IMG/VR virus record: IMGVR_UViG_3300041809_000370
Location: 1 to 35,412 of that record
DNA length: 35,412 nt
Reading direction: 5' to 3' (one strand)
Source of the DNA: a virus
In this document: piece after piece, positions 2,244 through 35,412 of the stretch
Position numbering within the stretch: position 1 is the first letter of the stretch
Layout of the letters: the number at the start of each line of letters is the position of its first letter
Program-made: the position numbers and the translations under genes
The notes under the pieces: generated by a model
The model's database searches: none
Told to the model about the DNA's origin: nothing
What the model saw: the letters and a program-made list of their open reading frames with translations, nothing else

Positions 2244-2473
2244 TTCTCCTCCTTCTTGATCTTCGCAGTGACGGAGGCGTAAGGCAGCAGCGAGCCGCCG
2301 TCCTCGAGCTTGTCCGTGATCTTCATCGAGACGCCAGCCTCTCTCTTGAAGGCGAGCCGTGTGAAGAAGGCCTTATCGTGCAGGAGCGCCCCTAGGACGG
2401 CCTTCAGCTCGCCGACGAGCTCGGTCCCCGATCCTTCAACTTCGATGCATAGCTGGAGCTTCGCGGTTTTCAA
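2240..2473 (-). CDS. Small alpha/beta phage protein, TTG start
   Basis: I place the start at TTG 2473, giving 77 residues: it overlaps the upstream stop as TTGA and has AAGGACG about 4 nt upstream. A GTG at 2527 would force 55 bp of overlap with the upstream coding region. The protein shows strand-helix-strand features (KTAKLQLCIEVEG, ELVGELKAVLGALL, MKITDKL, YASVTAKIKKEE). No family recognised. Confidence 0.6.
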   Translation of the reverse strand: MKTAKLQLCIEVEGSGTELVGELKAVLGALLHDKAFFTRLAFKREAGVSMKITDKLEDGGSLLPYASVTAKIKKEEK

Positions 2474-2910
2474 AACTCGTCCTTCGCGCCCCAGGTCCAC
2501 CCGTTGCGCTGGTTGACCTTGACCCACTCCTGCCTTGCGAAGTCACCACGCTCTAGACCTTTCTTTCGGTCGTAAGGGCTTGGGTACCAGATCCGCTCGG
2601 ATGCGAAAATCGCGATGTTCCTTTCCACGGGTAGGTTCGCCTGATAAAAAATCCCGTAGACCTCCTCCATCTGCTTGCGGTCCCTCCAGCGGTCGACGCA
2701 GTTAGACCAGTCGTCGAAGTTTTGGCGCTGGGCCACAAAGAGATCCCCGCGCTGGAATCGTTCAACAAGATCTTGGGCCTTCGGCCTGTACTGCTGCGCG
2801 TACTCGTCGCTCACCGCGTTTGCGTCCATCTTGCCTCCCTTGATCTCCCGCAATAGCTGGCTCAGTCCACCCTCCTTGACTATGGTTTCGAGTCTTTCGG
2901 TAAGCCTCAT
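2470..2910 (-). CDS. Hypothetical protein coupled to the replication initiator
   Basis: The 146-residue protein starts at ATG 2910 inside the initiator's stop (ATGA). It is Arg/Asp-rich and mainly helical (VERFQRGDLFVAQRQNF, DRWRDRKQMEEVYGIFYQ), with an aromatic C-terminal part (ERIWYPSPYDR, GWTWGAKDEF). Its position directly after an O/DnaD-like gene is where helicase loaders are often found in phage genomes. It lacks a Walker A motif, so it is not a DnaC-type ATPase; a replication-partner role is guilt by association. Confidence 0.65.
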   Translation of the reverse strand: MRLTERLETIVKEGGLSQLLREIKGGKMDANAVSDEYAQQYRPKAQDLVERFQRGDLFVAQRQNFDDWSNCVDRWRDRKQMEEVYGIFYQANLPVERNIAIFASERIWYPSPYDRKKGLERGDFARQEWVKVNQRNGWTWGAKDEF

Positions 2911-3812
2911 ACGTCACCCAGCTTGGATACCTGCCCCGGCGCATCACGCCTCTGCTCTTCCTGACGACCTTGGTTGCCTCCGTAGACCCTCTTAATAAAA
3001 GCGGCATCTGACTCGCCAGGACCTTCCTCTTGCTGGCCGCGTTGCCAGGGTGCCCTTGGGGCCTCTTTCTTTCTTGGAGCCCCAGCGTAACGATCCGGGT
3101 TATAGACGACATCCCAGAAGTCCTTTTTGCAGAAGTCGTCCGCGAGCATATTCAAAAGCCGCCGATAAAGTCCATCCGGTCCAAGCGCATCTAGGGCGGT
3201 ATTGATCGCTGGCTGAAGATTGGACCGCTTCAGCCATACCGGGGGCTGTCCGAACTTCTGCTTCCAGGTGGCCTCCGCCTTTAGCCACCATTCATCCTGA
3301 CGGGGATGCTTCCCAGGCTTGCCCTGGTGGGTTTTAGGTTTTAAGTCCTTAAGAAGGTCCTTAGTACTATTAGGAGATAGGGAAATCCCCTTATCAGACT
3401 GGGGAAATTCCCCTATCAGATCTGGGGATTTCCCTTGTCCCTGATCTGGGGATTTCCCAGATCCCTTTGGTAAAAGGGACTGCTGTTTCGGCTCCCCGTC
3501 CATCCTAAAGCGGGCTATCTCATGGGCCTCATCCCAGGAAATTTCTTCGATGGTTTTTTCATAATCGTAACCATCTGAAGTTCTGGTTCTCTTGAGCCAT
3601 CCTTTTTCGGCCATGCCCTTTGTGAGGTCGTTGATCCGGTCCAATGTCATCCCGGTATAGGCAGCCAATTCCTTTGCCTTGAGTTTCCTTTTCCCGTTCT
3701 TCCATCCCTTGAGGTTGAAAGCCCCAAGAATCTTGCAAAAACCTGGATTGCAGTCTTCTATCTGAGCCCGAAGATCCACCATAGCCATCGGGGAAAGGTT
3801 GCTCCTCGCCAC
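2907..3812 (-). CDS. DnaD/lambda-O-like replication initiator
   Basis: In the 301-residue form the N-terminal ~100 residues look like a winged helix (FCKILGAFNLKGWKNGK, KLKAKELAAYTGMTLDRIND, MAEKGWLKRTRTSDGYDY). A low-complexity linker rich in GKSPD/SDKG follows, then a C-terminal helical domain (WWLKAEATWKQKFG, LYRRLLNMLADDF). This N-DNA-binding, linker, C-partner-binding arrangement is that of phage initiators such as lambda O. The start chosen is GTG 3812 with AGAGG 5 nt upstream; ATG 3788 is possible and a TTG at 3854 is unlikely. The linker-coding DNA holds four regular repeats (3369-3458) beside AT-rich DNA. It is preceded by a promoter and a structured leader. Confidence 0.7.
   Translation of the reverse strand: MARSNLSPMAMVDLRAQIEDCNPGFCKILGAFNLKGWKNGKRKLKAKELAAYTGMTLDRINDLTKGMAEKGWLKRTRTSDGYDYEKTIEEISWDEAHEIARFRMDGEPKQQSLLPKGSGKSPDQGQGKSPDLIGEFPQSDKGISLSPNSTKDLLKDLKPKTHQGKPGKHPRQDEWWLKAEATWKQKFGQPPVWLKRSNLQPAINTALDALGPDGLYRRLLNMLADDFCKKDFWDVVYNPDRYAGAPRKKEAPRAPWQRGQQEEGPGESDAAFIKRVYGGNQGRQEEQRRDAPGQVSKLGDV
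3331..3370. other. AT-rich stretch next to iterons (possible DNA unwinding element)
   Basis: About two thirds of these 40 bases are A or T, in an otherwise GC-rich gene, and they directly abut the first iteron. Low-melting DNA beside iterons is the arrangement found in lambda-type origins. It also encodes part of the initiator linker (TKDLLKDLKPKT), so Lys/Leu codons contribute to the composition. Confidence 0.45.
3369..3458. repeat. Four iterons inside the initiator gene: candidate replication origin
   Basis: Four copies of a G3-4-A/T-rich-C3-4 core occur at 3380-3390, 3401-3413, 3424-3434 and 3448-3458, with centres about 22, 22 and 24 bp apart, close to two helical turns. Copies 2-4 share an extended upstream part, TATCAGA(T)CTGGGGA at its clearest. 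Each core is nearly palindromic, and copy 2 is a perfect palindrome. They lie in the linker-coding middle of the initiator gene, as the lambda ori iterons lie in gene O. Confidence 0.65.
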
Positions 3813-3832
3813 GCCTACCTCTGAAAATAAAA

Positions 3833-3938
3833 ATCGGCTCGGATCGCGGCTCAAGCCCCTGCCATGCCAGGGGACAAGAGGTTGAGGACTCCAGCCCCAG
3901 GAGGAAACCCCGGGACTAAAGCCGCGATCAAAGCCGAT
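3833..3938 (-). promoter_or_regulatory. Structured leader with 19-bp inverted repeat upstream of initiator
   Basis: Bases 3833-3851 and 3920-3938 are inverted repeats of 19 bp with 17 Watson-Crick pairs, one possible G-U and one mismatch on the minus-strand RNA. They enclose 68 nt that include a further 6-bp hairpin (CCCCTG/CAGGGG, near 3855-3875). The 3' arm ends about 10 nt before the AGAGG ribosome site of the initiator. The element lies between the predicted transcription start (~3958) and GTG 3812, so it may control initiator expression, or be an origin-associated structure. Confidence 0.5.
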
Positions 3939-3964
3939 GTGCCCGCCTCAACACGGACCCGCCA

Positions 3965-3993
3965 AATATAGCGGCATCTTTTTTTGCTGTCCA
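3965..3993 (-). promoter_or_regulatory. Sigma70-type promoter for the initiator gene
   Basis: On the minus strand, TGGACA (3988-3993, five of six consensus bases) is followed after exactly 17 bp by TATATT (3965-3970, five of six). The predicted start is near 3958, giving a leader of about 146 nt before GTG 3812. It sits in the gap after the nuclease stop at 4001. Confidence 0.6.
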
Positions 3994-4000
3994 GTTCTTT

Positions 4001-22983: not shown

Positions 22984-25977
22984 CTAGGGCTCTCCGTAGG
23001 GGGTCCAGGTCGCGGTCGGGGTCGCGGTATGCGACCAGTTTGGCGTGGCCGTTGGGGTAAATGTGTGCGACCAGTTGGGGGTCGCGGTCGGCGTCCATGT
23101 TGGAGTCGGTGAAATAGAGAACGTGGGCGAGATTGAGAAGGTCGGCGAGATCGTCGTAGTTGGGACGAGCGTCGCCGTATAGGTCGTCGTGCAGTTTGGG
23201 GCACTGGGAAGCTCAGCCATGACAACCCCTATCCCAGGGTTGTGTTTTGTCGCCTTGTAGGTCACAGAAGAGGATATCCGCGAGCAACAGTAATCATCCT
23301 CAGAGGCAAAGGTCCCGTAGTTGTTGAAATAGTAGGAATTGGTGAATCCACCAGGCCAAGAGAGGAGCCCATAAAGTCCAGCGTATCCGGCCATGACGAG
23401 GCTTATGCTCGCCTGAGAGGTGAACGTGCAGGTCACGCTTTGGCTCTGCTGCCCTTCCTGCGGTGAAACGGCCCCGTTGACGTTGAGCTGGCCTACCACG
23501 TCATAGATGCCCTGGTACTCCGAGATCGCCACCGCATCGACGTTTATCATTCCCGTTGAAGGCTGGGTGATGACGAGGTTCTGCTGGCCCATTCTCCAAT
23601 TGCTACCAAGGAAAACGTGCCAGAGTTCGCAGCCTTCGGTGTACATAAGCGAAGGGATCTGGATATCCGCCGTCAAAGTCAGCGACCCGAAGGTCATGGA
23701 GGTAATTGTGCTCGCGTTGTCCTGGTTGTTTGTCGCCACCAAGACCGTAAGCATATCCGCAAAGGCTCCTGAGTCCGGGGAATAAGGGATTGTGATGATC
23801 GGAGAGTTTGCCGCCGTTACCGTCATGCCCTCGTCCCAGGAAGGACCAAAGCCGCAGGGCGGAGGCGTCTGGGTCGGGGTTATGCTCGCAACCGGGGAGA
23901 CAGTCATCGTCGGCGTAAATGTCGGGGTCGTCCCGCCGCTAAAATTCAGCGTCAGCATGACTGCTCCCGTGGCCGTAACGTACTGCGAGTAGGAACCAGA
24001 GTAGGTCCCCACGTTAGAATGAGCCCAGAGGTCACGGACGACCGCCGAACCGGATGGAAGCACTTGGTTCCCGCCAACGCTGACAGGCCAGGTTACGGTC
24101 ATTGTCTGGCCCGAGTTGCTCCCGTTGAAAAGCATGACGGAATAAGTGCTTGCCGAAGTGTTGGTCATTGACTTAGCAAAGACCTCAACGTTGGTCGAAG
24201 GGTTGGAAACGAGTTCGGCACCCCACCCGTTATGATCAATGGCGATGACTTCAGCGTTCTCAAGGGTTGTAAGGGACTGGGCGCTTTGCGTGACGTTGTC
24301 CCAAAGGCCAAGATACATACCCTGCTCACAGACCGCTGAGAAATAGCCCTGGTCCTGCCAAGCGGTCATCCCATCGTTTCCGATAGGGCCATCCCAGATA
24401 TCAAAGCCGTTGCCTGGGTTGTTGTAGCCCCAGAGCGGATAGTCAAGGTTCCACTGATTCAAGAAGTTTGACCAAGGCCCTCCACCTCCATAGATCGCCG
24501 TCCACCATCCGTTTGTTCCCACGGACCCGGACCAAGTATAGTTCGCTGGGCCTGTTCCAAACCCCCAGCTTTCAAAGGTCATGACCCGGCTGCTGGAGTT
24601 GTATTCAATCGCATTGTTGAAAACAATTGCCTCCGCCTCAACCGTGTTCGACATGGAGCATGTATCCATAGTGATGTCGTCGGTTCCGTCTGCCGCAAGG
24701 TCGTTTATGTCTGTCGTTTCGTAGCCGTAGCTGCCAGGGGAGGAAGTCCCACACTGGATGCTACCTCCGTCAAGATACATGCTCAATTTCAGGGGGATCG
24801 CCTCCGCGTGGCAGTAGGCGGCAACTGTGGCGATATTGAGCCCAGCGATAGCCACAAGATGCCCGTTGGATCTGGTGGCCTGAGCCCAGCCCGAGTCAAT
24901 ATGGAGGCTCGTGTATCCTGCCGCAGCAAGTCCCGTCGCCTCCATTGCATCCGCCAAGGCTTCACAGGCGACGGTGCTGTTGGTCAGCGAAGCAACCCCC
25001 ATCCAAGGTGCATTTAGAGGGTGAAGGACCGGGCCGGGAGTAAACGAGGGCGTTGGGGAAACCGAGAAAGTCGGAGAAATCGTCGGGCTTATGGTTGGAG
25101 ATCCCGAAGGACCCGAAAGCGTGTCGTTGGCCTTGAAGGTATAGACCCAGTAACCTCCTGTGTTTGAAATCGTGCAGGAGGTGCAGGACCATTCCGGGTC
25201 CGTGTTTGGGTTTGAGAGGATGACGATGCCCGAGCCGCCATTGCCTCCGGTGGTTCCTCCCCCGGTCGAAGATCCACCCGCGCCACCGCCGCCCGAGCCT
25301 GTGTTCGCCGTTGCAGCGGTTCCGTTGGAATTTCCTGTTCCGCCCGCACCGCCGCCGCCTGAGCCACCCGAGCCAGCCGTAGCGCCGCCCGCGCCGCCGC
25401 CGCCTGCATAGGTGTTTCCGGTTATCGGGTCCACCGCTCCAGAACCGCCGCTGCCTCCAACCCCTGACGTGGCATTTGCTCCCGTGGACCCAGCGCCGCC
25501 ACCACCGCCGCCCGCATTAGGGGCGGTCCCCACGCATCCGTTGCTATACCCATTACCTCCGGCATTAGCCAAAGCCCCGCTTGCGGAGCATCCTGAATAG
25601 TAATTGGTTGGGCATCCGCTGTCATAGCCGCAACCACCACCGCCAGAGCCGCCGCTGGTACATCCTCCGCCAGTCCACCCGCCGCCTCCGCCCCCACCCT
25701 TTGCCACGGCCAAGGTTCCAATACTGGTTGTTCCGCCTGATCCGCCAGGACCAGTATAGGTAGCTGCCCCGGTTCCGCCTGATCCAATCGTAATTACAAC
25801 GCTATTTCCAACGGCGACTGTTCCTGTGAGCATTTGCCCAGCACCGCCGCCTCCCTCTGTAGCATATACAGATCCTCCGCCACCACCACCACCGCCACCT
25901 CCAATCACGGTGTCATTAAAGTTCTCAGCGTGAGCCGAGCCTAATGCCATGATGAGGATAAGGCAAAATGCTTTCAC
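22984..25977 (-). CDS. Exported glycine-rich protein with GH27 alpha-galactosidase-like domain
   Basis: The 997-residue protein starts at GTG 25977 inside the upstream stop (GTGA). Residues 1-17 are a signal peptide (MKAFCLILIMALGSAHA), and about 28-270 are glycine-rich, with poly-Gly runs and several Cys, as in receptor-binding phage glycine-rich domains. A Thr-Pro linker follows. About 317-585 have the GH27 pattern: APWMGVASL near Met326, ATGLAAAGYTSLHIDSGW, KLSMYLDGGSIQC, ITMDTC with nucleophile-position Asp438, and ENAEVIAIDHNG near 581. A beta sandwich follows, then a second linker (675-705), a domain related to that of the upstream gene (706-930) and a Thr-Pro tail. The usual WRxxxD acid/base segment is not evident, so catalysis is uncertain. 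Confidence 0.65.
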   Translation of the reverse strand: MKAFCLILIMALGSAHAENFNDTVIGGGGGGGGGGSVYATEGGGGAGQMLTGTVAVGNSVVITIGSGGTGAATYTGPGGSGGTTSIGTLAVAKGGGGGGGWTGGGCTSGGSGGGGCGYDSGCPTNYYSGCSASGALANAGGNGYSNGCVGTAPNAGGGGGGAGSTGANATSGVGGSGGSGAVDPITGNTYAGGGGAGGATAGSGGSGGGGAGGTGNSNGTAATANTGSGGGGAGGSSTGGGTTGGNGGSGIVILSNPNTDPEWSCTSCTISNTGGYWVYTFKANDTLSGPSGSPTISPTISPTFSVSPTPSFTPGPVLHPLNAPWMGVASLTNSTVACEALADAMEATGLAAAGYTSLHIDSGWAQATRSNGHLVAIAGLNIATVAAYCHAEAIPLKLSMYLDGGSIQCGTSSPGSYGYETTDINDLAADGTDDITMDTCSMSNTVEAEAIVFNNAIEYNSSSRVMTFESWGFGTGPANYTWSGSVGTNGWWTAIYGGGGPWSNFLNQWNLDYPLWGYNNPGNGFDIWDGPIGNDGMTAWQDQGYFSAVCEQGMYLGLWDNVTQSAQSLTTLENAEVIAIDHNGWGAELVSNPSTNVEVFAKSMTNTSASTYSVMLFNGSNSGQTMTVTWPVSVGGNQVLPSGSAVVRDLWAHSNVGTYSGSYSQYVTATGAVMLTLNFSGGTTPTFTPTMTVSPVASITPTQTPPPCGFGPSWDEGMTVTAANSPIITIPYSPDSGAFADMLTVLVATNNQDNASTITSMTFGSLTLTADIQIPSLMYTEGCELWHVFLGSNWRMGQQNLVITQPSTGMINVDAVAISEYQGIYDVVGQLNVNGAVSPQEGQQSQSVTCTFTSQASISLVMAGYAGLYGLLSWPGGFTNSYYFNNYGTFASEDDYCCSRISSSVTYKATKHNPGIGVVMAELPSAPNCTTTYTATLVPTTTISPTFSISPTFSISPTPTWTPTATPNWSHTFTPTATPNWSHTATPTATWTPYGEP

Positions 25978-27002
25978 GCTCTGCGCTCCGTCGAACAGGG
26001 CCTGCGATACGGGATTGCCACGTCATCACATGGATCAAAGTCCCAAAAAGCCCTAAGAGGTAAGCTCCAAGGAATCATAGGAAAATCATCAACAGGAACA
26101 TATAAAGGAGTTGAAGTTGGTGTAGCGGTTGGAGTTGCAGTTGGAGTGAACGTTGGGGTGAATGTTGGAGTAGACGTAGGCGTCACCGTCGGCGTCCAGG
26201 TCGGCGTGGACGTCGGCGTGGTGCTGGGCGTGGCGGTCGGTGTCCACGTGGGCGTGCTCGCGACGACGCCCTGGATCTCGGACATGATCTCCGCGCCATA
26301 GACGCTTGCATTGAAATTGAAGTACCCGTTGTAGGTGCCGATCGAAAGATTCAACGTGTTGTAATCGCCGCCCGTCGGATTGATCACGCTCGACTGCTGC
26401 AGCTGCGTCATGAGCCCGCTATTGTAGCTGTTGATCACGGTGGGCGAATTGCCCCAGCTGATCGAGACGTCGATGATTGAATTTGCGACCGTGGTCGTGA
26501 GACTGACGGACATGAGCGCGGAATTGCCGGGAACCTCACCCTTGGCGTCGTCCTTGAAGGGCGTCGTCTGATTCACGCCCGAATACTCTTCGTAATCGAT
26601 CGTCACGCCCTGATTGTTGGCCGTGGCCGCTGTCAAGGTCACGGTGAAGGTCGCGCCCGTGCTATTGGCCGGGTTCAGGAGATACCAAACTTCATCTCCG
26701 TAATATTGGTTCGTGCCGCTGGCTGGATAGCGGTCATACAGCGTCATCGCGCTCGTGCCCCATTCAGCTGTGGACACGTTGCCGCTCGGGGTGATCCAGT
26801 AGTGAGCGTGGAGGACGAGCATCTTGTTCGTCCCGGATCCGGACGTCGAGTAACTGGAGGTCGTGTAGTGACTCGCGCCCGTGGACGGACTCGCTGAGTA
26901 CATGCCGCTATTGATGTAGACGGGGTTCGTCGCGTGAGCGGCGTTGACGAGCAGGAGCAAGGCCGCTAAGAGGGCGAAGGTGAAGCGCGGAAGGCGGGTC
27001 AT
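25974..27002 (-). CDS. Exported beta-sandwich adhesin with Thr-Pro linker
   Basis: The 342-residue protein has a signal peptide at 1-24 (FALLAALLLLVNAAHA). Residues 26-245 form a beta domain (LVLHAHYWITPSGN, EVWYLLNPANSTGATFTV, VTIDYEEYSGVNQTTPF) whose order of elements recurs in residues 706-930 of the downstream protein. A 12-bp degenerate repeat encodes Thr-Pro runs (about 248-300), followed by a distinct 42-residue end rich in Pro, Phe and Trp. Codon composition changes inside the repeat near 26180. Function is likely surface binding; catalytic motifs are absent. Confidence 0.6.
   Translation of the reverse strand: MTRLPRFTFALLAALLLLVNAAHATNPVYINSGMYSASPSTGASHYTTSSYSTSGSGTNKMLVLHAHYWITPSGNVSTAEWGTSAMTLYDRYPASGTNQYYGDEVWYLLNPANSTGATFTVTLTAATANNQGVTIDYEEYSGVNQTTPFKDDAKGEVPGNSALMSVSLTTTVANSIIDVSISWGNSPTVINSYNSGLMTQLQQSSVINPTGGDYNTLNLSIGTYNGYFNFNASVYGAEIMSEIQGVVASTPTWTPTATPSTTPTSTPTWTPTVTPTSTPTFTPTFTPTATPTATPTSTPLYVPVDDFPMIPWSLPLRAFWDFDPCDDVAIPYRRPCSTERRA
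26100..26265 (-). repeat. Degenerate 12-bp tandem repeat encoding Thr-Pro linker
   Basis: Repeats of the form G-T-(C/T)-G-G-(A/C/T)-G-T on the plus strand encode (Ser/Thr)-Pro-Thr-(Trp/Phe/Ala)-Thr-Pro units. Copies below ~26180 are AT-richer, those above GC-rich. Related repeats lie in 22985-23160 and 13860-14035, giving scattered homology that could support domain exchange. Confidence 0.6.
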
Positions 27003-27005
27003 GGG

Positions 27006-27509
27006 TTAATACGGCCAATTGGTAGGAAGGTAGTACCAGCAGGAGGTCGTGATTGCCGTGGGGGTCGTTCCACCTGCGGCGAAAGGAACGCCTATGCTCG
27101 GGGGAGTGTCGACGTAGAGGTAGCGGGCGATCTTGGGGATGGCGTAGCAGCCGATTTGGTTCGGTCCCCCTGGGATCGCGTAGGAGGTGAAGGTCCCCGC
27201 CGAAACGGTCGTCCCCGCCGTGTAGGAGGTCGAGTTGCTGGTCCACCAGACCCGAAGGTTCGCTCCTCCCGTTGAGGTGACGTTGAGGAAGAAGCACCCG
27301 ACGAGGCCAAGGTCCACCGTCGCGGAGGCCGTCCCGGTCAGCGCCTTGTTGAGCAGATAGGTCGCTGTCCCGGTCGCCTGGTGGGCGCAATAGTCCGGGT
27401 TCAGCGTTCCGGTCGGCTGGTTATTGTACGGGCTCGCTGCGCTTGCGAACGAGCTGATGCCTAGTATCGCGCACAGGAACAGTGTGAATAGGAATAGGCG
27501 GCGGAGCAT
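27006..27509 (-). CDS. Small exported Cys-containing protein
   Basis: I place the start at ATG 27509, preceded by AGGGGGAAAAAG, because it gives a clean signal peptide (MLRRLFLFTLFLCAILGISS, cut after ASA near 24). The mature part of about 143 residues is Thr/Ser/Gly-rich and beta-like (LRVWWTSNSTSYTAGTTVSA, FFLNVTSTGG) with four Cys, enough for two disulphides. It opens the cluster of exported proteins. Its first 89 bp overlap the end of the upstream gene. Confidence 0.55.
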   Translation of the reverse strand: MLRRLFLFTLFLCAILGISSFASAASPYNNQPTGTLNPDYCAHQATGTATYLLNKALTGTASATVDLGLVGCFFLNVTSTGGANLRVWWTSNSTSYTAGTTVSAGTFTSYAIPGGPNQIGCYAIPKIARYLYVDTPPSIGVPFAAGGTTPTAITTSCWYYLPTNWPY

Positions 27510-27861
27510 CTTTTTCCCCCTGGGAGGTGGGCCGCCCTCGCGCTGCATCAAGCGCTTGCGGCAGGATTTCCCGGAGTCGGTCCTTATTGATGAGCCGCTT
27601 CCGGACCAAAAGCTTAAAGACGGAGATATAGCCCCTGGCTACGCGCCCCGCCTTGTCAATGAAGTCGTACTTGGGAAAGGAACCGTGGAAAGGGGACGGG
27701 TAGCCGCAGACCTCGCAGAGTCCATACAGGCCCGAGTCTGGGTGATAGGAGCGCCGCTCGTAGATCATCGAGCTCCGCTTGCTCCTGCTCGGGAAGGTCC
27801 TGAGGTTGCCATTGAGCTTCCTCAGGGTCCTGTAGAACTCTTCAAAAGATATGCTGCTCAC
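27421..27861 (-). CDS. Hypothetical protein with CxxC...H motif
   Basis: The start is GTG 27861 with AAGGGGGAC upstream; 146 residues. The core LYGLCEVCGYPSPFHG suggests a metal site, followed by KYDFIDKAGRVARGYISVF and a basic helix (LLVRKRLINKDRLREIL). The last ~30 residues, coded in the region shared with the exported gene, are Pro/Arg-rich and look unconstrained. The overlap of 89 bp is far larger than elsewhere in the window, so the true end may be earlier (a mutation or frameshift) or the tail may be tolerated read-on. Confidence 0.5.
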   Translation of the reverse strand: MSSISFEEFYRTLRKLNGNLRTFPSRSKRSSMIYERRSYHPDSGLYGLCEVCGYPSPFHGSFPKYDFIDKAGRVARGYISVFKLLVRKRLINKDRLREILPQALDAARGRPTSQGEKDAPPPIPIHTVPVRDTRHQLVRKRSEPVQ

Positions 27862-27889
27862 CCGTCCCCCTTTTCACGAGTTTTGGATC

Positions 27890-28153
27890 TTAGTCCACGC
27901 CCTTGTCTTCGCTCTCCGGAACCTCGCGATTCTGGTTGACGAAGCCGCCACGCGCCTTCAGGAGGTTCTCAGGACCGACGACCTCCTTGAACGCCTTGGT
28001 GTAGTTGCCTTCGCCCTTGTTCCGCAGGTCCGATCCAGCCGCAAAGATCTGGATGGAACGGCCCTGAGCATCGGCTTCGACGTTGATGTTCTCGCCGTCG
28101 CCAATTTCCGAAGCCTCCCGGAAGGGAGGCGCCATGCCCTTGTCCTTCATCAT
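27890..28153 (-). CDS. Small head-region protein, unknown function
   Basis: The 87-residue protein has a GAGGAC ribosome site before ATG 28153 (or the adjacent ATG 28150). It mixes short strands (ENINVEADAQGRSIQIFAAG) and a helix (NYTKAFKEVVGPENLLKA). Located between head proteins and the exported cluster; no family recognised. Confidence 0.6.
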   Translation of the reverse strand: MMKDKGMAPPFREASEIGDGENINVEADAQGRSIQIFAAGSDLRNKGEGNYTKAFKEVVGPENLLKARGGFVNQNREVPESEDKGVD

Positions 28154-28156
28154 GAC

Positions 28157-28552
28157 TCAGTCCTCCAGCGGCGAGAGAGCCGCGATCGAGACGCCCCGCT
28201 TCGGCACCGGGAACTGCACCTGAGCGGAGAACGTGACGCCCTCGTAGGTGGTGACGTCCACGAGAACGGCCTGGGTGATGTTCCTGACTTCCTGGTTCGG
28301 GCCGACTTTCATCGGCACAACCTGGGTCACCACATTCCCCTTCTCGTCGCGCTGCGGGCCGCGAGAGACATTGGAGCCTGTGACGAGCAACAGGTGGGTG
28401 CTGACTTTCTTGGTCCTCGGGTCCGTCTCCGTCAGATTGACGAAGGTTCCGACCTTCGGAGACCACGCCGGAGCGGCAGGAGCCGCAGCCGGGGGTGGGG
28501 TTTTAGCCGGAGCGGCAGGAGCCGCAGCCGGAGTAGCGTCATCGGTGGGCAT
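28157..28552 (-). CDS. Beta-rich head-region protein with Ala/Pro tail
   Basis: In the 131-residue protein the first 30 residues are Ala/Pro-rich and the rest is strand-rich (KVSTHLLLVTGSNVSRGPQ, VTQVVPMKVGPNQEVRN, AQVQFPVPKRGVSI). It follows the capsid gene and may be a head decoration or completion protein, by position only. ATG 28552 has GGGAGGA upstream. A 26-bp direct repeat (28467-28492 and 28506-28531) encodes part of the Ala/Pro stretch. Confidence 0.6.
   Translation of the reverse strand: MPTDDATPAAAPAAPAKTPPPAAAPAAPAWSPKVGTFVNLTETDPRTKKVSTHLLLVTGSNVSRGPQRDEKGNVVTQVVPMKVGPNQEVRNITQAVLVDVTTYEGVTFSAQVQFPVPKRGVSIAALSPLED
28467..28531 (-). repeat. 26-bp direct repeat pair inside a head-protein gene
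   Basis: Two identical copies, 28467-28492 and 28506-28531, are separated by 13 bp and encode Pro/Ala units. Slippage could change linker length. Confidence 0.7.
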
Positions 28553-28582
28553 TTTCCGATCCTCCCTATGATGGTTTCTAAC

Positions 28583-28607
28583 AGACCTTCCGGATTAGAA
28601 GGTCTGC
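28583..28607 (-). terminator. Hairpin over the capsid gene stop
   Basis: CAGACCTTC (28583-28591) and GAAGGTCTG (28599-28607) form a 9-bp perfect stem; the TAA of the capsid gene lies in the loop. Only a short TT follows on the minus strand, so attenuation or 3'-end stabilisation is more likely than strong termination. Confidence 0.5.
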
Positions 28608-29536
28608 TCCGAGACAGCGGACTCGACGATGAAGCCACGGATGCCGTCGCTGATGTCGCCAGCGGCATAGGTGGCTTTCCAGCCGACCGTTCCGACCTGG
28701 CCGAGCGGGTTGGCGGCGTTGACGTTCGTCGCCGGGCTGACGAACAGCGAGAAGGGCATCGACTCCACGTCCACGTTCAGGAGCGCGTCGGGGCCTCCGG
28801 CGATGGACTGGTAGACGGTGACTCCGTTCGTCTGCGTCTGCTGGATGTTCGAGGAGCTGACGATCCGGAACCCGGCCAGGCGCGTGAGCTCGCCCGTCCA
28901 GATGCCGTCCGACTGGTCCCCGCCCATGGCGCGGCGCTGGACGTCCAAAGTGCCGCCGACCTTGTCGTCGATGTCCAGGTCGTACTGCTGGTCGGGATGG
29001 ATGATCCAGTTGTACAGGTCATCGTCTCCCGGCATGACGTCCTTGGCCTGGAAGATCTTGCGGATGCGCCGGATCTGCTGGGCCGTGATCACGTCTCCCG
29101 CGTCGATCGTGCCCGCCGTCTTGTTGTTGGCGTAGAGCACGGTCCAGGCGCCCAGGATGACGTTCATCGTGACCGTATCCAGGGTTAAAGCGGCGTTATA
29201 GCCGAGCACCTTCGTCGCGACATCCATCATGGAGCTACGGCCAGTGACTTCCAGAAGGTCGGAAATCTTGACGTAGGCGCCCCACTGCTGGAGGGTCGTC
29301 GTGTAGGTGTTCGTGGTGATCGCGATGTCTGCGGGAGCGGTTCCTTCGGTCAGCGCCGTGGTCTGGGCTGCGACCGGGATGGGACGCCAGGTGGAGAGGG
29401 TCTGGCCGCTGTAGCGGTCGATCTCTTCCTGGGTCCCCAGCTTGGCGACGTAGAGCTTCTTCCTCAAGAAGCTTTGCGAGCGCTTCTTGTAGTAGGTCAT
29501 CGCCGCCGCGCTGACTGTTGCGGTTGTCATGGACAT
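28595..29536 (-). CDS. Major capsid protein, N4-gp56 family
   Basis: The 313-residue protein fits the N4-gp56 group of HK97-fold capsid proteins: N-terminal AAMTYYKKRSQSFLRKKLYV, the conserved RPIPVAAQTTALTEGTAP, QWGAYVKISDLLEVTG, ALTLDTVTMNVILG, and later PDQQYDLDI and IWTGELTRLAGFRIV. It assembles the capsid with the scaffold encoded upstream. ATG 29536 (or 29530) follows an AGAGG that lies in a small hairpin. Length is normal for the group. Confidence 0.8.
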   Translation of the reverse strand: MSMTTATVSAAAMTYYKKRSQSFLRKKLYVAKLGTQEEIDRYSGQTLSTWRPIPVAAQTTALTEGTAPADIAITTNTYTTTLQQWGAYVKISDLLEVTGRSSMMDVATKVLGYNAALTLDTVTMNVILGAWTVLYANNKTAGTIDAGDVITAQQIRRIRKIFQAKDVMPGDDDLYNWIIHPDQQYDLDIDDKVGGTLDVQRRAMGGDQSDGIWTGELTRLAGFRIVSSSNIQQTQTNGVTVYQSIAGGPDALLNVDVESMPFSLFVSPATNVNAANPLGQVGTVGWKATYAAGDISDGIRGFIVESAVSEQTF

Positions 29537-29540
29537 GACT

Positions 29541-29561
29541 GGGGCCTCTGAGGGTGGCCCC
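29541..29561 (-). promoter_or_regulatory. Hairpin at the capsid ribosome site
   Basis: GGGGCC (29541-29546) and GGCCCC (29556-29561) pair around a 9-nt loop; the AGAGG ribosome site of the capsid gene falls at the edge of the 3' arm. It could tune translation or stabilise the 5' end after processing. Confidence 0.4.
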
Positions 29562-29577
29562 GAGCCTACTTACCCAA

Positions 29578-30546
29578 TTATCTGCGCTGGTTCACTTGGC
29601 GGGAGAGCGACTTCTCGATGACGTCCATCGGAAGCTTTTCCCGTTCCTCTTCGGACATGGAGTTGATCTCGGCCTCGGTCAGCTTCTTCTCGCCGCCCGG
29701 AGCGACTGCCCCGCTTGCCTTGAAGCTGCGACCACCCTTGCCGGACTCCTGAGCCTGCTTTGCCGCGACCTCAGCCCCTTTGGCCTGGACGGTCTTGGAG
29801 CGCTCTTGGAGAGCTCGCAGGATCAGCTCATGTGGGTCCCAGCTCTTGACGATCCGGTCCAGGCGGGCTGTGGCGGCCGCGTCCCCTGCTTGCGAGGCGG
29901 TCATATCGTCTTCCATCAGCTTCTTCATGATCGGATCGACTTCTTTCGTGTCGATCCCCATGTCGGTTACCTGCTTCCGGATCCCGTCGCGGAACGAGAC
30001 CAACTGGCTTTCGGCCTGCTGCTTCTGGAGGAACTGGATGATTGGGCCATATTGCGCCTCGACCATCGTGCTCAGTTCCTTCCCCATGAACTCTTTGAGG
30101 AACTTTTCCGCCTCCGTGCGCTGCGCCTCTTGGGCCTGCTGCTCGGGGGTCAATGGGGTGGCTGGCGCGGCTGGCTTGGCTTCGAGCTGCTTCTGCACCC
30201 GGTCGAGCTGGGCGCGGAGCGCTGCGTAGCTTCTGTTCTCTCGCGTCAGTTGGGACAGAGTGTTCTCAAGAGCCGCGTACTTGGCCTGGAGCTGTTTGAG
30301 GGAGTCTGCTGCGCTCGGCTCTGTTACCGCCGGGGCTCCTCCCTTCCCTGCATCCACTCCTGCCGTTCCTTCAGCGCTTGCGCCCGTCTTCCCTGCTTCC
30401 ACGCCTCCTGCACCTTTGTCCGCCGAAGCCGCTTGGTCTCCCTTGGGTGCGCTGCCTTGCATCGGCAGGTCTTTCCCAAGTTCCTCCATCGACATATCTT
30501 TGAACTCTTCTGTGCCGGGCATGTCTGAGCTGAGTTCTTCGGGCAT
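29578..30546 (-). CDS. Scaffolding protein
   Basis: The 322-residue protein directly precedes the capsid gene. It is highly charged and helical: Gly/Ala-rich N-terminus, a coiled coil around 85-115 (LQAKYAALENTLSQLTRENR, LDRVQKQLEAKP), a helical middle, and a Lys/Glu-rich C-terminus (LTEAEINSMSEEEREKL, ending NQRR). Acidic-helical with a basic C-terminal end is the usual scaffold pattern, the basic end contacting the capsid. ATG 30546 has GGAGGAC upstream. Confidence 0.7.
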   Translation of the reverse strand: MPEELSSDMPGTEEFKDMSMEELGKDLPMQGSAPKGDQAASADKGAGGVEAGKTGASAEGTAGVDAGKGGAPAVTEPSAADSLKQLQAKYAALENTLSQLTRENRSYAALRAQLDRVQKQLEAKPAAPATPLTPEQQAQEAQRTEAEKFLKEFMGKELSTMVEAQYGPIIQFLQKQQAESQLVSFRDGIRKQVTDMGIDTKEVDPIMKKLMEDDMTASQAGDAAATARLDRIVKSWDPHELILRALQERSKTVQAKGAEVAAKQAQESGKGGRSFKASGAVAPGGEKKLTEAEINSMSEEEREKLPMDVIEKSLSRQVNQRR

Positions 30547-30594
30547 TTGTCCTCCGCATTGGGATAGACCCCTTACAGGGCGGTCCCTAGCCTA

Positions 30595-31032
30595 TCAAAT
30601 TTCGTCTTGACCTGGGGTGGGCCGGATGGCGGCCCCTGGTCCGTTCTGAGTGGATTCTTCACCCTTGACAGAGATCTTGTCAAGAAGATCTTTTGCTTGG
30701 TGCGCCCGTTCCCGGAGCTTGATATAGATCTGGACCGCTTCCTCCAAGGCCAGGAGCATAACCTTCGCTTGGATAAAGGCCTCTTCCGACTCCGGTGCGC
30801 GGTTAAGAAGCAGGTTGTCGATGGCGTCCTCGAGCACTTCGCGCTGGTTCTTGGCCCGCTTATGCAGCTCCAGGATGAAGGTCTCCCAAGCAGGCAGCAG
30901 GGCCATATCGCGGACCGCATTGTAGGCCGCCATGGCGTTGACGCACTCCTCGATCCCCCTCTCGCGCTGTTTCTTTGCGGAATCCAAAAGTCCAAGCGGG
31001 TCGGCCTGTGAAATCTCTGGCTCTAAATCCAT
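30595..31032 (-). CDS. Helical protein between portal and scaffold
   Basis: The 145-residue protein is all-helical and charged (AAYNAVRDMALLPAWETFIL, RAKNQREVLEDAIDNLLL, LEEAVQIYIKLRERAHQ). ATG 31032 follows AAGGAGGGGGA, an excellent ribosome site, so it is probably made in quantity. Small helical proteins at this position are often head-assembly factors; no family recognised. Confidence 0.65.
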   Translation of the reverse strand: MDLEPEISQADPLGLLDSAKKQRERGIEECVNAMAAYNAVRDMALLPAWETFILELHKRAKNQREVLEDAIDNLLLNRAPESEEAFIQAKVMLLALEEAVQIYIKLRERAHQAKDLLDKISVKGEESTQNGPGAAIRPTPGQDEI

Positions 31033-31041
31033 TCCCCCTCC

Positions 31042-33078
31042 TTATGCCCCTGTTGGCGTTCCTGGAACAAATCCTGGCTGCGGCGCGATCGGCGGCCCTG
31101 CGGGAGCTGGAGCGCCTGCTGGTGCTCCCGGTGCCCCTGGAGGCAGACCTGCCCCGGTTCCTGGCTGCGCGACGGGGTGCATCGAGAAGTAGCTGCGCCC
31201 GTTGCGGACCCCGGCCTTCGGCAGGATCTCCTTGAGGATGAAATCCATGACGTCGAAGTGCCACATATTGCCCTTGCCGTCGATCATGGCCTGTGGGTTC
31301 GTCACCTGGAGCTGGCCGAGCTGCTGCGCGATCTGCATCTGGCTTTGGAGCTGGGCTCGGGAATCATTCAGGGCCGCCGAAGTGACAGGGACGAAGAAGT
31401 AGTCGTTGACCAGATCCTCGCGGGTGATCTCGCGTGGCGCGCCGTCCAAGGTGCTCTCGCGGACCACCAGGTCCCCATCCTTCGCCCACTTGCGGATCGA
31501 CCACCAAAAGAGGTTCGCCATCCCCGCGAAGAACTCATAGCTGAACATGTCGACGAAGAGCTGGAAGCGCGTCCCGTTGTTGGCGTTCGTGATGGCCGCC
31601 GCCGTGGCTGTGGCATTCGCCAGCTCCGCGTCGGGGACGCCCTGGGCCTGCTCGTTGGCTGCGACTGTCTCCTGCGCCTGCTGGATGACCCACTGGCGCT
31701 CTGCCGAGACAGCCTTGATCTGGTTGCCGTCGATTGGGTTGGACTTCACCTTTTCCGGATCGGTGACGGCGATGATCGAAAGCTCGTCTTGGAAGAGCCT
31801 CAGCGTATCGAGCCCGGCTGCGCGCGAGACGAATGTGGGGTTGCGGGCCACCTTCTTGATCAGCTTGCCGACGGATTCGTGCAGGTTGTTCGCGTCGACC
31901 TGGAGGCCCATGATCGGGAAGAGGACCGAGTTTCCCAGCAGCTCGCGAGGCATCAAGGACTGGCGGCAGGAGAAGAACGGATGGTGCGGACCGCCTCCGC
32001 TCTCGTCTGTCCATGGGTTCGGCTCGCACTTCACCAGCGTCTTGTCGTTGACGATCATGAAGTGCAAAGAGACCTTCTCCCACTTCTTGGTCCCATCGGC
32101 TTGCGGGGCGTGGTAGGGAATCCAGCCGAACCACTCGTCGAGAAGTCGGACGCTTTCGTCCTGGGTGCCTTCCGAAGGGCCGACCGAACCTGGGCCGAGG
32201 AGCTGCTTGCGCTTCAAGTCTGGGTTCTGCTGCTCGAGCTTGGTGCTCTCCGCGATCTTCTCGATCTCGTTGACATCCTGGATGTCGCCCTTCTCCTCCA
32301 TTAGCAGCAGATCCGTGGTCGTCGGGAACTGGCGATGGGCGACGAACTCCGAGTTTTGGATCCTGAAGCTCTCGCGATCGTCCCAGATCAAGTTCTGCAT
32401 CGGGACGCCTTCCCAGGTCGGCCCGTGGACCTTCTTAATCATCCGGACCTCGCCGATCACAGCGCCTGGAACGTCGCCGCCGATCGGATCCTTGAGCATA
32501 ACCGGGGGAGGGATCGTCTCGAGCTCGCGCTCCTCCCAGGAGACGCGACCGAAGGCGGTCCCCTCGATCTTGAGGCCCTTCATGAAGTCGAAGGCCTTCT
32601 CCCCTGTGCGAGCCTGGGAGAAGAGCAGCTCCTGGTTCATCAGGTCCTCGATCGTCGTCTTGTTCTCATTGTCGAACTGCTGGCTGCGCGGCTGCGCGTC
32701 GACGACCTTCGCTCGGGAAAAAGCGGCCTGATAGCTCTTGGCCGTGTCGGTTTCGATGATGGAGTTGGAAAGAGGGATGTGGCTCGGGCTCGCCTGCCCC
32801 GCCATCATCTTGCCCGTATAGGCCTTCCAGGCGTTCATGACCTTCTCCGCCTGGCCGTTTGAGTCCCCGAACCAACGCTGGTGGCGCTTCTTCTTCTTGA
32901 AGGCCCATTCCATCAGCGCGTCCTTTGTCAGGCCTTCTGGCAGCATGACCGGGAAGGGCTTGTCACCCATCGGCCGCTTCTCATCGTGGGGCGCCTGCGG
33001 ATCGTTGTCGAAGCCGCTCGGATCCGGATCCGGTGGATCCGAGGAGCTGAAGGTCTGGGACTCGCCGCTGGGGATCAT
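31042..33078 (-). CDS. Portal protein
   Basis: The 678-residue protein has podoviral portal features: N-terminal helices (KKKKRHQRWFGDSNGQAEKV, SNSIIETDTAKSYQAAFS), the wing/stem region (AFDFMKGLKIEGTAFGRVSWE), VPMQNLIWDDRESFRIQNSE, LLGNSVLFPIMGLQVDANNL, and a C-terminal helical barrel (LQSQMQIAQQLGQLQVTNPQ). The tail is Pro/Gly/Ala low complexity. Length fits P22-like portals. It follows GroES by 9 bp with a GAGGG ribosome site, in the usual terminase-portal order. Confidence 0.75.
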   Translation of the reverse strand: MIPSGESQTFSSSDPPDPDPSGFDNDPQAPHDEKRPMGDKPFPVMLPEGLTKDALMEWAFKKKKRHQRWFGDSNGQAEKVMNAWKAYTGKMMAGQASPSHIPLSNSIIETDTAKSYQAAFSRAKVVDAQPRSQQFDNENKTTIEDLMNQELLFSQARTGEKAFDFMKGLKIEGTAFGRVSWEERELETIPPPVMLKDPIGGDVPGAVIGEVRMIKKVHGPTWEGVPMQNLIWDDRESFRIQNSEFVAHRQFPTTTDLLLMEEKGDIQDVNEIEKIAESTKLEQQNPDLKRKQLLGPGSVGPSEGTQDESVRLLDEWFGWIPYHAPQADGTKKWEKVSLHFMIVNDKTLVKCEPNPWTDESGGGPHHPFFSCRQSLMPRELLGNSVLFPIMGLQVDANNLHESVGKLIKKVARNPTFVSRAAGLDTLRLFQDELSIIAVTDPEKVKSNPIDGNQIKAVSAERQWVIQQAQETVAANEQAQGVPDAELANATATAAAITNANNGTRFQLFVDMFSYEFFAGMANLFWWSIRKWAKDGDLVVRESTLDGAPREITREDLVNDYFFVPVTSAALNDSRAQLQSQMQIAQQLGQLQVTNPQAMIDGKGNMWHFDVMDFILKEILPKAGVRNGRSYFSMHPVAQPGTGAGLPPGAPGAPAGAPAPAGPPIAPQPGFVPGTPTGA

Positions 33079-33087
33079 CTGGCCCTC

Positions 33088-33402
33088 TTACTTGAAGGTG
33101 ACGAGGATATCGTCGTGGCTGATGACGATGTAGCTGGTCTCGCCGAGACGGAAGTCGTTCCCGGCGTACTTGCTGAAGAGCACCTTCTGGCCCGGCTTCA
33201 GATTGATCGGCCGAAGCTTGCCATCGACGATGCGCCCCTCCCCCACCGCGACGACGGTGCCACGGTTCGGCTTATCCTGCGCCGTCTCCGGAACCACCAG
33301 CGTCAGCGTGCCATGCTTCATCTCTTTGTCTTCAGGGATCGGAATGACCAAAATGTGGTCGCCGATCGGCTGGATCTCGCTCTTCACCTTGGCTTCAGTC
33401 AC
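33088..33402 (-). CDS. GroES-like co-chaperonin
   Basis: The 104-residue protein matches Cpn10 along its length: IQPIGDHILVIPIPEDKE, a mobile-loop region MKHGTLTLVVPETA with a hydrophobic stretch where GroES has Ile-Val-Leu, NRGTVVAVGEGRI, LKPGQKVLFSKYAG and YIVISHDDILV. GroES caps GroEL and drives folding, and phages that need altered caps (T4 gp31 type) encode their own. It sits between terminase and portal with a GTG start at 33402, eight bases inside the terminase end. No GroEL gene is present in the window, so it would work with host GroEL. Confidence 0.85.
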   Translation of the reverse strand: MTEAKVKSEIQPIGDHILVIPIPEDKEMKHGTLTLVVPETAQDKPNRGTVVAVGEGRIVDGKLRPINLKPGQKVLFSKYAGNDFRLGETSYIVISHDDILVTFK

Positions 33403-34831
33403 GGCCGTCCCCCAGGAAGTATTTATCCAGGATCATGTTGTCAAACTCGTTTTTGTTCTTCCGCTGCATGGGCTTCGGCGTCGAGACCGTCTCCAAAACT
33501 CCCATGACAAGATACCGCAGCGCGTCGGGCGGGTCATCATCTTTCTTAATCGGCCGATCTGTGTTGTCCATGTTGCGGTTCGGAGGCTGCCAGGCGTAGA
33601 GCTTCATCGTGCGGACGAGCTGCGGGCAGAGGTCTCGGAAGATGAAGAGCTTCGGCTTGACCTTCCGCTCTGGGTCGAAGTGCAGGCGCTCGGCGACCTT
33701 GTTGATCCCGGCCGCGACGGAGTTGTTGGCAGGGGTGCCGTAGACCTTGTTCTCCGCGAACTCCCCCATCACCGTCCGCTCGACGACCCCGTGGTGCTGG
33801 TTGGTGGATGGATCGAAAAAGGCGCAGAGTCCGCCGTCATCCGCCCGCTGGACCGCCGAGTGCTTCTTGCTCTTCTGGTGCATATACTCCGCAACTTCGG
33901 AGACTAGCTTGCCCACGCAGTAAATCTCGTCGTAAATGTAGAGCTCCCCCTTCTCGTTGATCGCCCCCCAGAGAACGCAGCAGGGATGGTTGAAGCCCCA
34001 ATCCAAAGCGACAAAGCGGGGCCAGTGGGAGGGGATCCTGAAGGGCTCGACGCAATGAACCGTCTCGTCGAACTCCTGGTAGACGGCGCCGCCCCTGATG
34101 TCCCAGGAGCCGTTGAGGAATCGCTCGACCCATGCCTTTGGGTGGGTACGAAGTAGCTCCTCGATGAAGCCCGGCGGCAGGTTCTTCCGGTTGTGCTCTA
34201 CCGTCGTCTGGAAGTGGAGCCACTCTTTGGCCTCCTTATCAAAGAGAAACTCCTTCAGCCAGCCAGGGTCCGGGTTCGCCGCGATCGACTCGAAGGTCTG
34301 CGGGTAATAGCCCATCCGCGTCTTGAACTCTTCCCGGCGCTTTTGGTTCCACCAGCTTAGGCGGGAGCGGACGTGGTCGAAGACCTCCGGGTCCACCTCC
34401 TCGAGCTGATCCAAGAAGTACTCCGAGATCTCAAGCCCGAGCTGCTTGCCGATCTTGTCGACGGGTCGGAAGTGGATCGCGGAGGGAAGCCACTTGGTCC
34501 GCAGGTAGATCGAGTGTCCGCCAGCGCTGCCGTCGCTCCTGATGACCAGCGGCCCAGGCTCGAGCGCATTGCCCCCGTTGCGGGTCGCGATCAGCCCCAG
34601 GACTTCCTTCATCGTCGTCGCCTTCAAGTCCGTGAAGTACTTGCGGCCGACCAGGATATTCGAGCCGGGCATGATGTCGGCGTGGTAGAGGATTCGCGCC
34701 GCGCCCCCGAGCGTCTTTCCCGAGCGAATGGCTCCGGTATAGGCCGTCTTGCGCTTCACCGAGAAGACGAACTCCTCCTGCATCGGATTGTTCTCGAAGC
34801 TCAGGATCGTCGGGTCCGCTACCTCGGTCAT
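33395..34831 (-). CDS. Terminase large subunit
   Basis: In the 478-residue protein the ATPase domain has Walker A GAIRSGKT (residues 33-40) and a Walker-B-like stretch (LGLEISEYFLDQLEEVDP). The nuclease domain has Asp277 in VALDWGFNHPCCVLW, a middle acidic region, and DDDPPDALRY near 431-440. It translocates and cuts DNA during packaging. The ATG overlaps the upstream stop (ATGA) with AAGAAGAG nearby. Head order terminase-GroES-portal is otherwise standard. The small terminase subunit may lie outside the window to the right. Confidence 0.85.
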   Translation of the reverse strand: MTEVADPTILSFENNPMQEEFVFSVKRKTAYTGAIRSGKTLGGAARILYHADIMPGSNILVGRKYFTDLKATTMKEVLGLIATRNGGNALEPGPLVIRSDGSAGGHSIYLRTKWLPSAIHFRPVDKIGKQLGLEISEYFLDQLEEVDPEVFDHVRSRLSWWNQKRREEFKTRMGYYPQTFESIAANPDPGWLKEFLFDKEAKEWLHFQTTVEHNRKNLPPGFIEELLRTHPKAWVERFLNGSWDIRGGAVYQEFDETVHCVEPFRIPSHWPRFVALDWGFNHPCCVLWGAINEKGELYIYDEIYCVGKLVSEVAEYMHQKSKKHSAVQRADDGGLCAFFDPSTNQHHGVVERTVMGEFAENKVYGTPANNSVAAGINKVAERLHFDPERKVKPKLFIFRDLCPQLVRTMKLYAWQPPNRNMDNTDRPIKKDDDPPDALRYLVMGVLETVSTPKPMQRKNKNEFDNMILDKYFLGDGRD

Positions 34832-35103
34832 CGGAACTCTTCTTTGAAGCCCGAGCCCTTGCAGCTCTGGCAGATCTTCATCCGAAGGGCAGTATCAGCC
34901 TCCACAACCCCTTTGCCTCGACAATCCTCGCAAGCGGCATTGGAATCAAACCACATCTCGATCTGCTGAAGCGTCGGGTACTCCGGGAAGCAGCAGACGC
35001 CCTTGGGGTTCCAAGTCGCCCCGATGAAGTGGTCCGGAGGTAGTTCGTGGGCCTGCGTCCAGGCGTCCAGCTTCTGGTTGAGGTTGCGGATTGTTGGGAA
35101 CAC
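34828..35103 (-). CDS. Small protein with DnaJ-type Cys motifs
   Basis: The 91-residue protein starts at GTG 35103, directly after the upstream TAA. The C-terminal part has CEDCRGKG and CQSCKGSG, two CxxCxGxG motifs as in the DnaJ zinc domain, so it probably binds one zinc. The N-terminal half (TQAHELPPDHFIGATWNPK, YPTLQQIEMWFDSNA) is unknown. No clear Shine-Dalgarno; it is presumably translated by coupling. It precedes the terminase. Confidence 0.65.
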   Translation of the reverse strand: MFPTIRNLNQKLDAWTQAHELPPDHFIGATWNPKGVCCFPEYPTLQQIEMWFDSNAACEDCRGKGVVEADTALRMKICQSCKGSGFKEEFR

Positions 35104-35412
35104 TTACATAACCGTGATCGCCCAGCCGCCAGGCTCGAAGCCTCCGACGGGCGCGTTGTCGTCCCCGTTGTCCATGGTGTTGCTGTTGACGACGGCTCCG
35201 GGCGGAACTAACGACATCGCGAGCTTGGTAAAGGGCGCCTTCAGCTCCTTGAGCGCCTTCTCCAAGTCCAGGCCCTGGCCCATCACCTGCGCCTTGCGCG
35301 GAAGATAGATCGTTGTCTGTCCCGCCTTCATCCGGTCGAAGACCATCTGGGCCGACTTCCGGACACCCTCATTGGGGTCGCGGCGGTAGCGTTCGGTGAG
35401 CTGCGCGTCGAG
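35104..35412 (-). CDS. Partial phage protein running off the right edge
   Basis: The frame is open from the edge to TAA 35104. Visible residues include LDAQLTERYRRDPNEGVRKS, then MVFDRMKAGQTTIYLPRKAQ, a helix (LEKALKELKAPFTKLAM) and a Gly/Asn/Asp-rich end (DNGDDNAPVGGF). The start lies to the right of the window, because good coding continues to the edge; ATG 35346 is only an internal Met. No family recognised. Confidence 0.55.
   Translation of the reverse strand, partial: LDAQLTERYRRDPNEGVRKSAQMVFDRMKAGQTTIYLPRKAQVMGQGLDLEKALKELKAPFTKLAMSLVPPGAVVNSNTMDNGDDNAPVGGFEPGGWAITVM

Follow-up and report, generated by a model that had tools for sequence, protein, structure and literature searches.

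Replication origins that lie inside the gene of their own initiator are established for phage lambda and the Stx phages, where repeats are combined with an AT-rich DNA-unwinding element (DUE) (PMC7466680). In these phages, dimeric O protein occupies four iterons to form the O-some, the AT-rich tract opens and P-DnaB is recruited (PMC3985674; PMC7466680). The origin oriL of phage SPP1, located in gene 38, is likewise composed of direct repeats and an AT-rich DUE, and a second origin, oriR, is found about 13 kb from oriL (PMC6316719).

Here we analyzed a lone virus record of 35,412 b, referred to in its entirety as the window. Judging from the sequence, positions 3330–3459 very likely constitute a phage replication origin with a lambda-type layout, placed inside a gene that we infer to encode its initiator. 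Such an origin would be a fresh example of the known in-gene design, with an orphan protein that has no detectable relatives. The initial annotation had proposed a likely origin of this lambda-like, mid-gene kind, and the proposal is well supported by the statistics and by the comparison with lambda presented below.

Palindromic cores and the adjoining AT-rich stretch

Four palindromic cores of the form GGGA[W]2-3TCCC can be read directly at 3379–3459, inside the presumed initiator gene. On the plus strand they read AGGGAAATCCCC (3379–3390), GGGGAAATTCCCC (3401–3413), GGGGATTTCCCT (3424–3435) and GGGGATTTCCCA (3448–3459), and in ascending window coordinates their centers are separated by 22.5, 22.5 and 24 bp. 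The GGGA-to-TCCC palindromes proper cover 3380–3389, 3402–3412, 3425–3434 and 3449–3458. This agrees with the near-identical cores at steps of about 22–24 bp that had been described before; the count of four iterons also stands, whereas the span of 3369–3458 given for them has to be corrected to 3379–3459. The distance from TCCC through GGGA between neighboring cores is 20–22 bp, and the array covers offsets 329–409 of 882 nt, i.e. 37–46% of the gene. Two consecutive 24-nt units (3419–3442 and 3443–3466) are 88% identical, and tandem duplication was therefore probably the source of part of the array.

The gene is encoded on the minus strand, so that the cores are met in reverse order when read in its direction. 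The first (TGGGAAATCCCC, 3448–3459) and the second (AGGGAAATCCCC, 3424–3435) both code for GKSPD. The third core (GGGGAATTTCCCC, 3401–3413) has 1 bp more than the others and codes for GEFP in a different frame, and the fourth (GGGGATTTCCCT, 3379–3390) codes for GISL. Repeated GKSPD units, which the linker had been said to carry, are thus present at two of the four cores only. Since the cores fall in two frames and one of them is longer by 1 bp, the repetition does not lie in the peptide.

The whole window contains four matches to GGGA[W]2-3TCCC, all of them within the array. A first-order Markov simulation of the window gave an expectation of 0.38 sites per 35 kb, and two sites within 80 bp were obtained in none of 100 runs. 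We also recoded the gene synonymously 20,000 times, keeping the protein sequence fixed and sampling codons from the phage's own usage. No core was present in 18,239 of the recoded sequences, one in 1,704 and two in 57, while three or more were never reached, compared with the four observed. This indicates that the repeats are kept as DNA. The constraint of DNA on a protein region that the initial annotation had put forward is therefore even stronger than claimed, with cores in different frames both here and in the genes of other phages (see below).

Directly downstream of the last core in the gene direction lies the presumed DNA-unwinding element (3330–3380, no strand assigned), which contains the 50-mer of lowest stability in the window. 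When all 35,362 50-mers were ranked by nearest-neighbor energy, the one starting at 3330/3331 came first for low stability. The stretch 3331–3370, previously pointed out as AT-rich and lying beside the repeats, does have an AT content of 67.5%; shifted by one nucleotide, 3332–3371 reaches 70% and is the top 40-mer of the window. The AT-rich stretch begins about 8 nt past the last core in the gene direction, at offset 417 of the gene.

The presumed initiator and its surroundings

The presumed initiator gene (2907–3812, minus strand) starts either with GTG at 3812 or with ATG at 3788, giving a protein of 301 or 293 aa, respectively; the GTG, which is preceded by AGAGGT, is the likelier start. 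The protein is predicted to consist of a winged-helix N-terminal domain, the iteron-coding linker and a helical C-terminal part. Comparison with sequence families of Pfam, PHROG, NCBIfam and PDB returned nothing convincing. MarR_2, at 0.0017, remained under its cut-off, no match to PF04492 (Phage_rep_O) or to a PHROG initiator was obtained at E<=1, and a one-on-one HHalign comparison with two O-like proteins was marginal (E 0.022). The C-terminal part did not match a DnaD domain in Pfam, PHROGs or NCBIfam.

Modeled alone, the N-terminal 106 residues adopted a winged helix with modest confidence (pLDDT 61.6), with fold matches to MarR, IscR and other winged-helix proteins, a fold that is common among repressors. 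In the viral library, the model matched many HTH proteins, two of which carry the name lambda O N-terminal. The lambda O DNA-binding domain was not among the PDB fold matches listed, an absence that is uninformative. Folding of the whole protein without an alignment reached a pLDDT of 43, with a C-terminal part that is helical at low confidence.

Homologues of the presumed initiator were found neither in viral_contigs, genome_contigs, phage records and plasmids, nor in two RecT-related viral contigs and the full record of the sibling contig L004, nor in about 1,190 genomes from three phyla that were chosen by guess. Searches for related contigs by way of the RecT-like protein, the exonuclease, the DUF932 protein and the 146-aa protein described below either led to distant contexts that lack a matching initiator or gave no result. 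A four-copy array in L002 (12739) was considered as a positional counterpart and rejected, as it falls outside the listed ORFs. The designation "O/DnaD-like" in the initial annotation is thus not borne out at the level of the protein, for which only a generic winged helix is predicted; from its sequence, the term appears to suit the layout rather than a demonstrated descent.

The downstream gene (2470–2910, minus strand) encodes 146 aa, overlaps the initiator gene by 4 nt (ATGA, 2907–2910) and holds the place of lambda P. Its product matched neither P nor DnaC nor any other family in Pfam and NCBIfam, and its PHROG match was at chance level, making it an orphan like the presumed initiator. Upstream of the initiator gene lie genes for an exonuclease-like protein (DUF2800/phrog_69), a RecT-like annealing protein (phrog_561), a SpoVG-domain protein and a DUF932 protein. 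They form an early replication-recombination cluster, the place where an initiator is expected.

The leader of the initiator gene (3813–4000, minus strand) is highly structured, with a folding energy of -85.6 kcal/mol (z = -4.06 against shuffled sequences). Its long hairpin (arms 3833–3859 and 3912–3938) ends in UUUUUAUUUU just ahead of the Shine-Dalgarno sequence, and the leader also holds a promoter-like site (3993–3965), the sole such site found nearby. It looks like an attenuator or terminator ahead of the initiator gene, and this structure with its terminator-like tail suggests that transcription of the initiator is regulated. Rfam and tRNA scans gave no matches. The sibling viral contig L004 is 99.9% identical to the window over 12 kb (23398–35412) and extends 3.35 kb past its right end, so the window is probably an incomplete genome. 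The GC skew shows no turn at 3.4 kb; this is weak evidence against an origin, because skew also tracks the direction of the genes and the contig is probably incomplete.

The same core in other phages and alternative readings

To look beyond the window, viral_contigs were scanned for two GGGAWWTCCC cores spaced 16–30 bp apart. The scan returned 46 viral loci, of which eight lie inside genes that PHROGs names replication initiators. These are a lambda-O-like gene (L010, PF04492) and its near-copy L046, and genes assigned to phrog_270 (L007), phrog_2149 (L020), phrog_4707 (L021) and phrog_11233 (L023, L037 and L049). On the assumption that an initiator gene makes up about 2.5% of a phage genome, the binomial probability of eight in 46 is about 1.7e-5, and that of seven in 38, which allows for near-copies, about 3.9e-5. 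In two Desulfosarcina genomes an array is present in a gene of one type, and the one that was scanned (L059) matches phrog_270. Cores occur in two or three frames within one gene in L007, L010, L021, L037, L049 and L059, where they are read as GKSP, GDIP/GEIP or GNP depending on the frame. Thus, in the initiators of other phages as well, it is the DNA and not the peptide that is conserved.

A control palindrome, GGCAWWTGCC, was meant as the null. Its pairs also fell in initiator genes (about 15 of 76 ORFs), essentially of one family. Paired palindromes are therefore a mark of initiators in general, and the GGGA core is not alone in being enriched there. The GGCAWWTGCC arrays (GGCAAATGCC in L086) are found in winged-helix phage initiators that resemble phrog_391 and have the linker AANAAPPAAAAP; carriers include L086, L087, L098, L107, L115, L132, L133 and others, and they represent another class of in-gene iterons.

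Among the remaining matches to the GGGA core are short tandem arrays that precede terminase small subunits, as well as isolated instances in ORFs that are structural or unassigned. In L006, L011, L028, L032 and L044, 13-bp tandem arrays of GGGGAATTCCCAT are located at the start of the terminase small subunit gene or immediately ahead of it, where they are possibly packaging or regulatory repeats. A ParB-like gene (L031, 205–888) carries two GGGGATTTCCCC palindromes at its 3′ end. In L071, from a Proteobacteria MAG, an ORF at the edge of the available DNA resembles DNA gyrase subunit B by eye and carries three GGGGATTTCCCC palindromes 24 bp apart (about 2376–2434) at its 5′ end. One Ignavibacteria MAG contains separate arrays of AGGGATATCCCT-like palindromes with a spacing of 21–22 bp, mostly outside long ORFs (L060, L062, L069 and L070); these are a dispersed repeat element of that MAG.

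The palindromes of the window could instead be operators, through which a MarR-like winged-helix protein or another regulator controls the transcription of its own operon. Dimeric repressors suit palindromic sites, and the general fold of the predicted domain is nearest to repressors of the MarR/IscR type. However, four evenly spaced sites in mid-gene, roughly 330–410 nt past the start and adjoining the weakest duplex, would be an odd layout for operators; the only promoter-like site nearby is about 0.5 kb upstream of the cores, and matching arrays elsewhere reside in annotated initiators. We therefore consider regulation by such operators improbable. Even less probable are partition or copy-control (incompatibility) sites, i.e. 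centromere-like palindromes to which a ParB-like protein or some other phage protein binds, while the true origin lies elsewhere. The two cores near the 3′ end of the ParB-like gene in L031 and fold matches to the centromere-binding winged-helix proteins TubR and pNOB8 centromere-binding protein would fit this explanation, but a non-exhaustive look beside the initiator gene revealed no ParA/ParM/TubZ-type gene, and the AT-rich flank together with the lambda-like layout favors an origin.

Local duplication might also have enlarged the linker and left coding or neutral repeats without a function in the DNA, in line with the high identity of the two 24-nt units. Such a history hardly accounts for cores that span two frames, one of them 1 bp longer, for the failure of all 20,000 synonymous recodings to reach three cores, or for the same core in several frames within the initiator linkers of other phages, and it has very little likelihood in our view. 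A replication origin is the reading that we favor.

Proposed mechanism and comparison with known origins

By analogy with the described systems, the winged-helix N-terminal domain of the presumed initiator would bind, probably in dimeric form, to the four GGGAWW(W)TCCC palindromes. The cores are spaced by two helical turns, so that the sites would all face the same side of the helix. Once assembled, the complex could strain and open the adjoining AT-rich stretch (3330–3380). Recruitment of the host's replicative helicase may then fall to the helical C-terminal part, perhaps assisted by the product of the overlapping downstream gene.

Palindromes that occur in pairs at iteron spacing can point toward a phage initiator and its origin even where the protein has no detectable relatives, and in this case the in-gene-origin class would gain an orphan initiator. 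The recurrence of one core across initiator groups and in differing frames offers a simple means of annotating the origins of uncultured phages. It also raises the question of whether initiators with this core share DNA specificity. GGGA-W2-4-TCCC might be a shared iteron "word" of the lambda-O-like, phrog_11233, phrog_4707, phrog_270 and phrog_2149 initiators and the orphan, arising by convergence or retained from the specificity of a winged-helix ancestor while the proteins diverged, although we regard a common word of this kind as rather doubtful.

The layout is shared with lambda (NC_001416) in several respects. Both loci have four sites, with a spacing of 20, 24 and 23 bp in lambda and of about 24, 22.5 and 22.5 bp in the window. 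The lambda iterons are at offsets 348–432 of the 900-nt O gene, i.e. at 39–48% of its length, compared with 37–46% in the window gene. The AT-rich stretch follows on the same side, 3 nt after the last site in lambda, where the highest-AT 40-mer begins at offset 435, and about 8 nt after it in the window. The 4-nt overlap of O with P, like that of the window gene with its downstream neighbor, has the sequence ATGA.

The repeat had been described as different from that of lambda, which is correct for the order of its half-sites but not for the half-sites themselves, since TCCC and GGGA are used in both. The lambda iterons read ATCCCTCAAAACGAGGGA, with TCCC...GGGA half-sites at a fixed distance and variable junctions. 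The fixed unit in lambda is therefore TCCC...GGGA (18 bp), whereas the window has the inverse order, GGGA-W2-3-TCCC, i.e. the same half-sites in another phase; in lambda this order is confined to a single junction between iterons, GGGAAAATCCC. The proteins differ as well, as by sequence the window protein has no Phage_rep_O domain and the downstream protein does not match P.

With SPP1 the proposed origin shares the combination of repeats and an AT-rich DUE within the gene of the origin-binding protein. The core itself is found again in the GGGGATATCCCC arrays of the phrog_11233 "replication initiation protein" genes (L023, L037 and L049), with a spacing of 21–22 bp. Although these initiators are not recognizably related to the window protein, their arrays are likewise placed in mid-gene, at 35–48% of the initiator gene, and in L037 and L049 they also extend over more than one reading frame.
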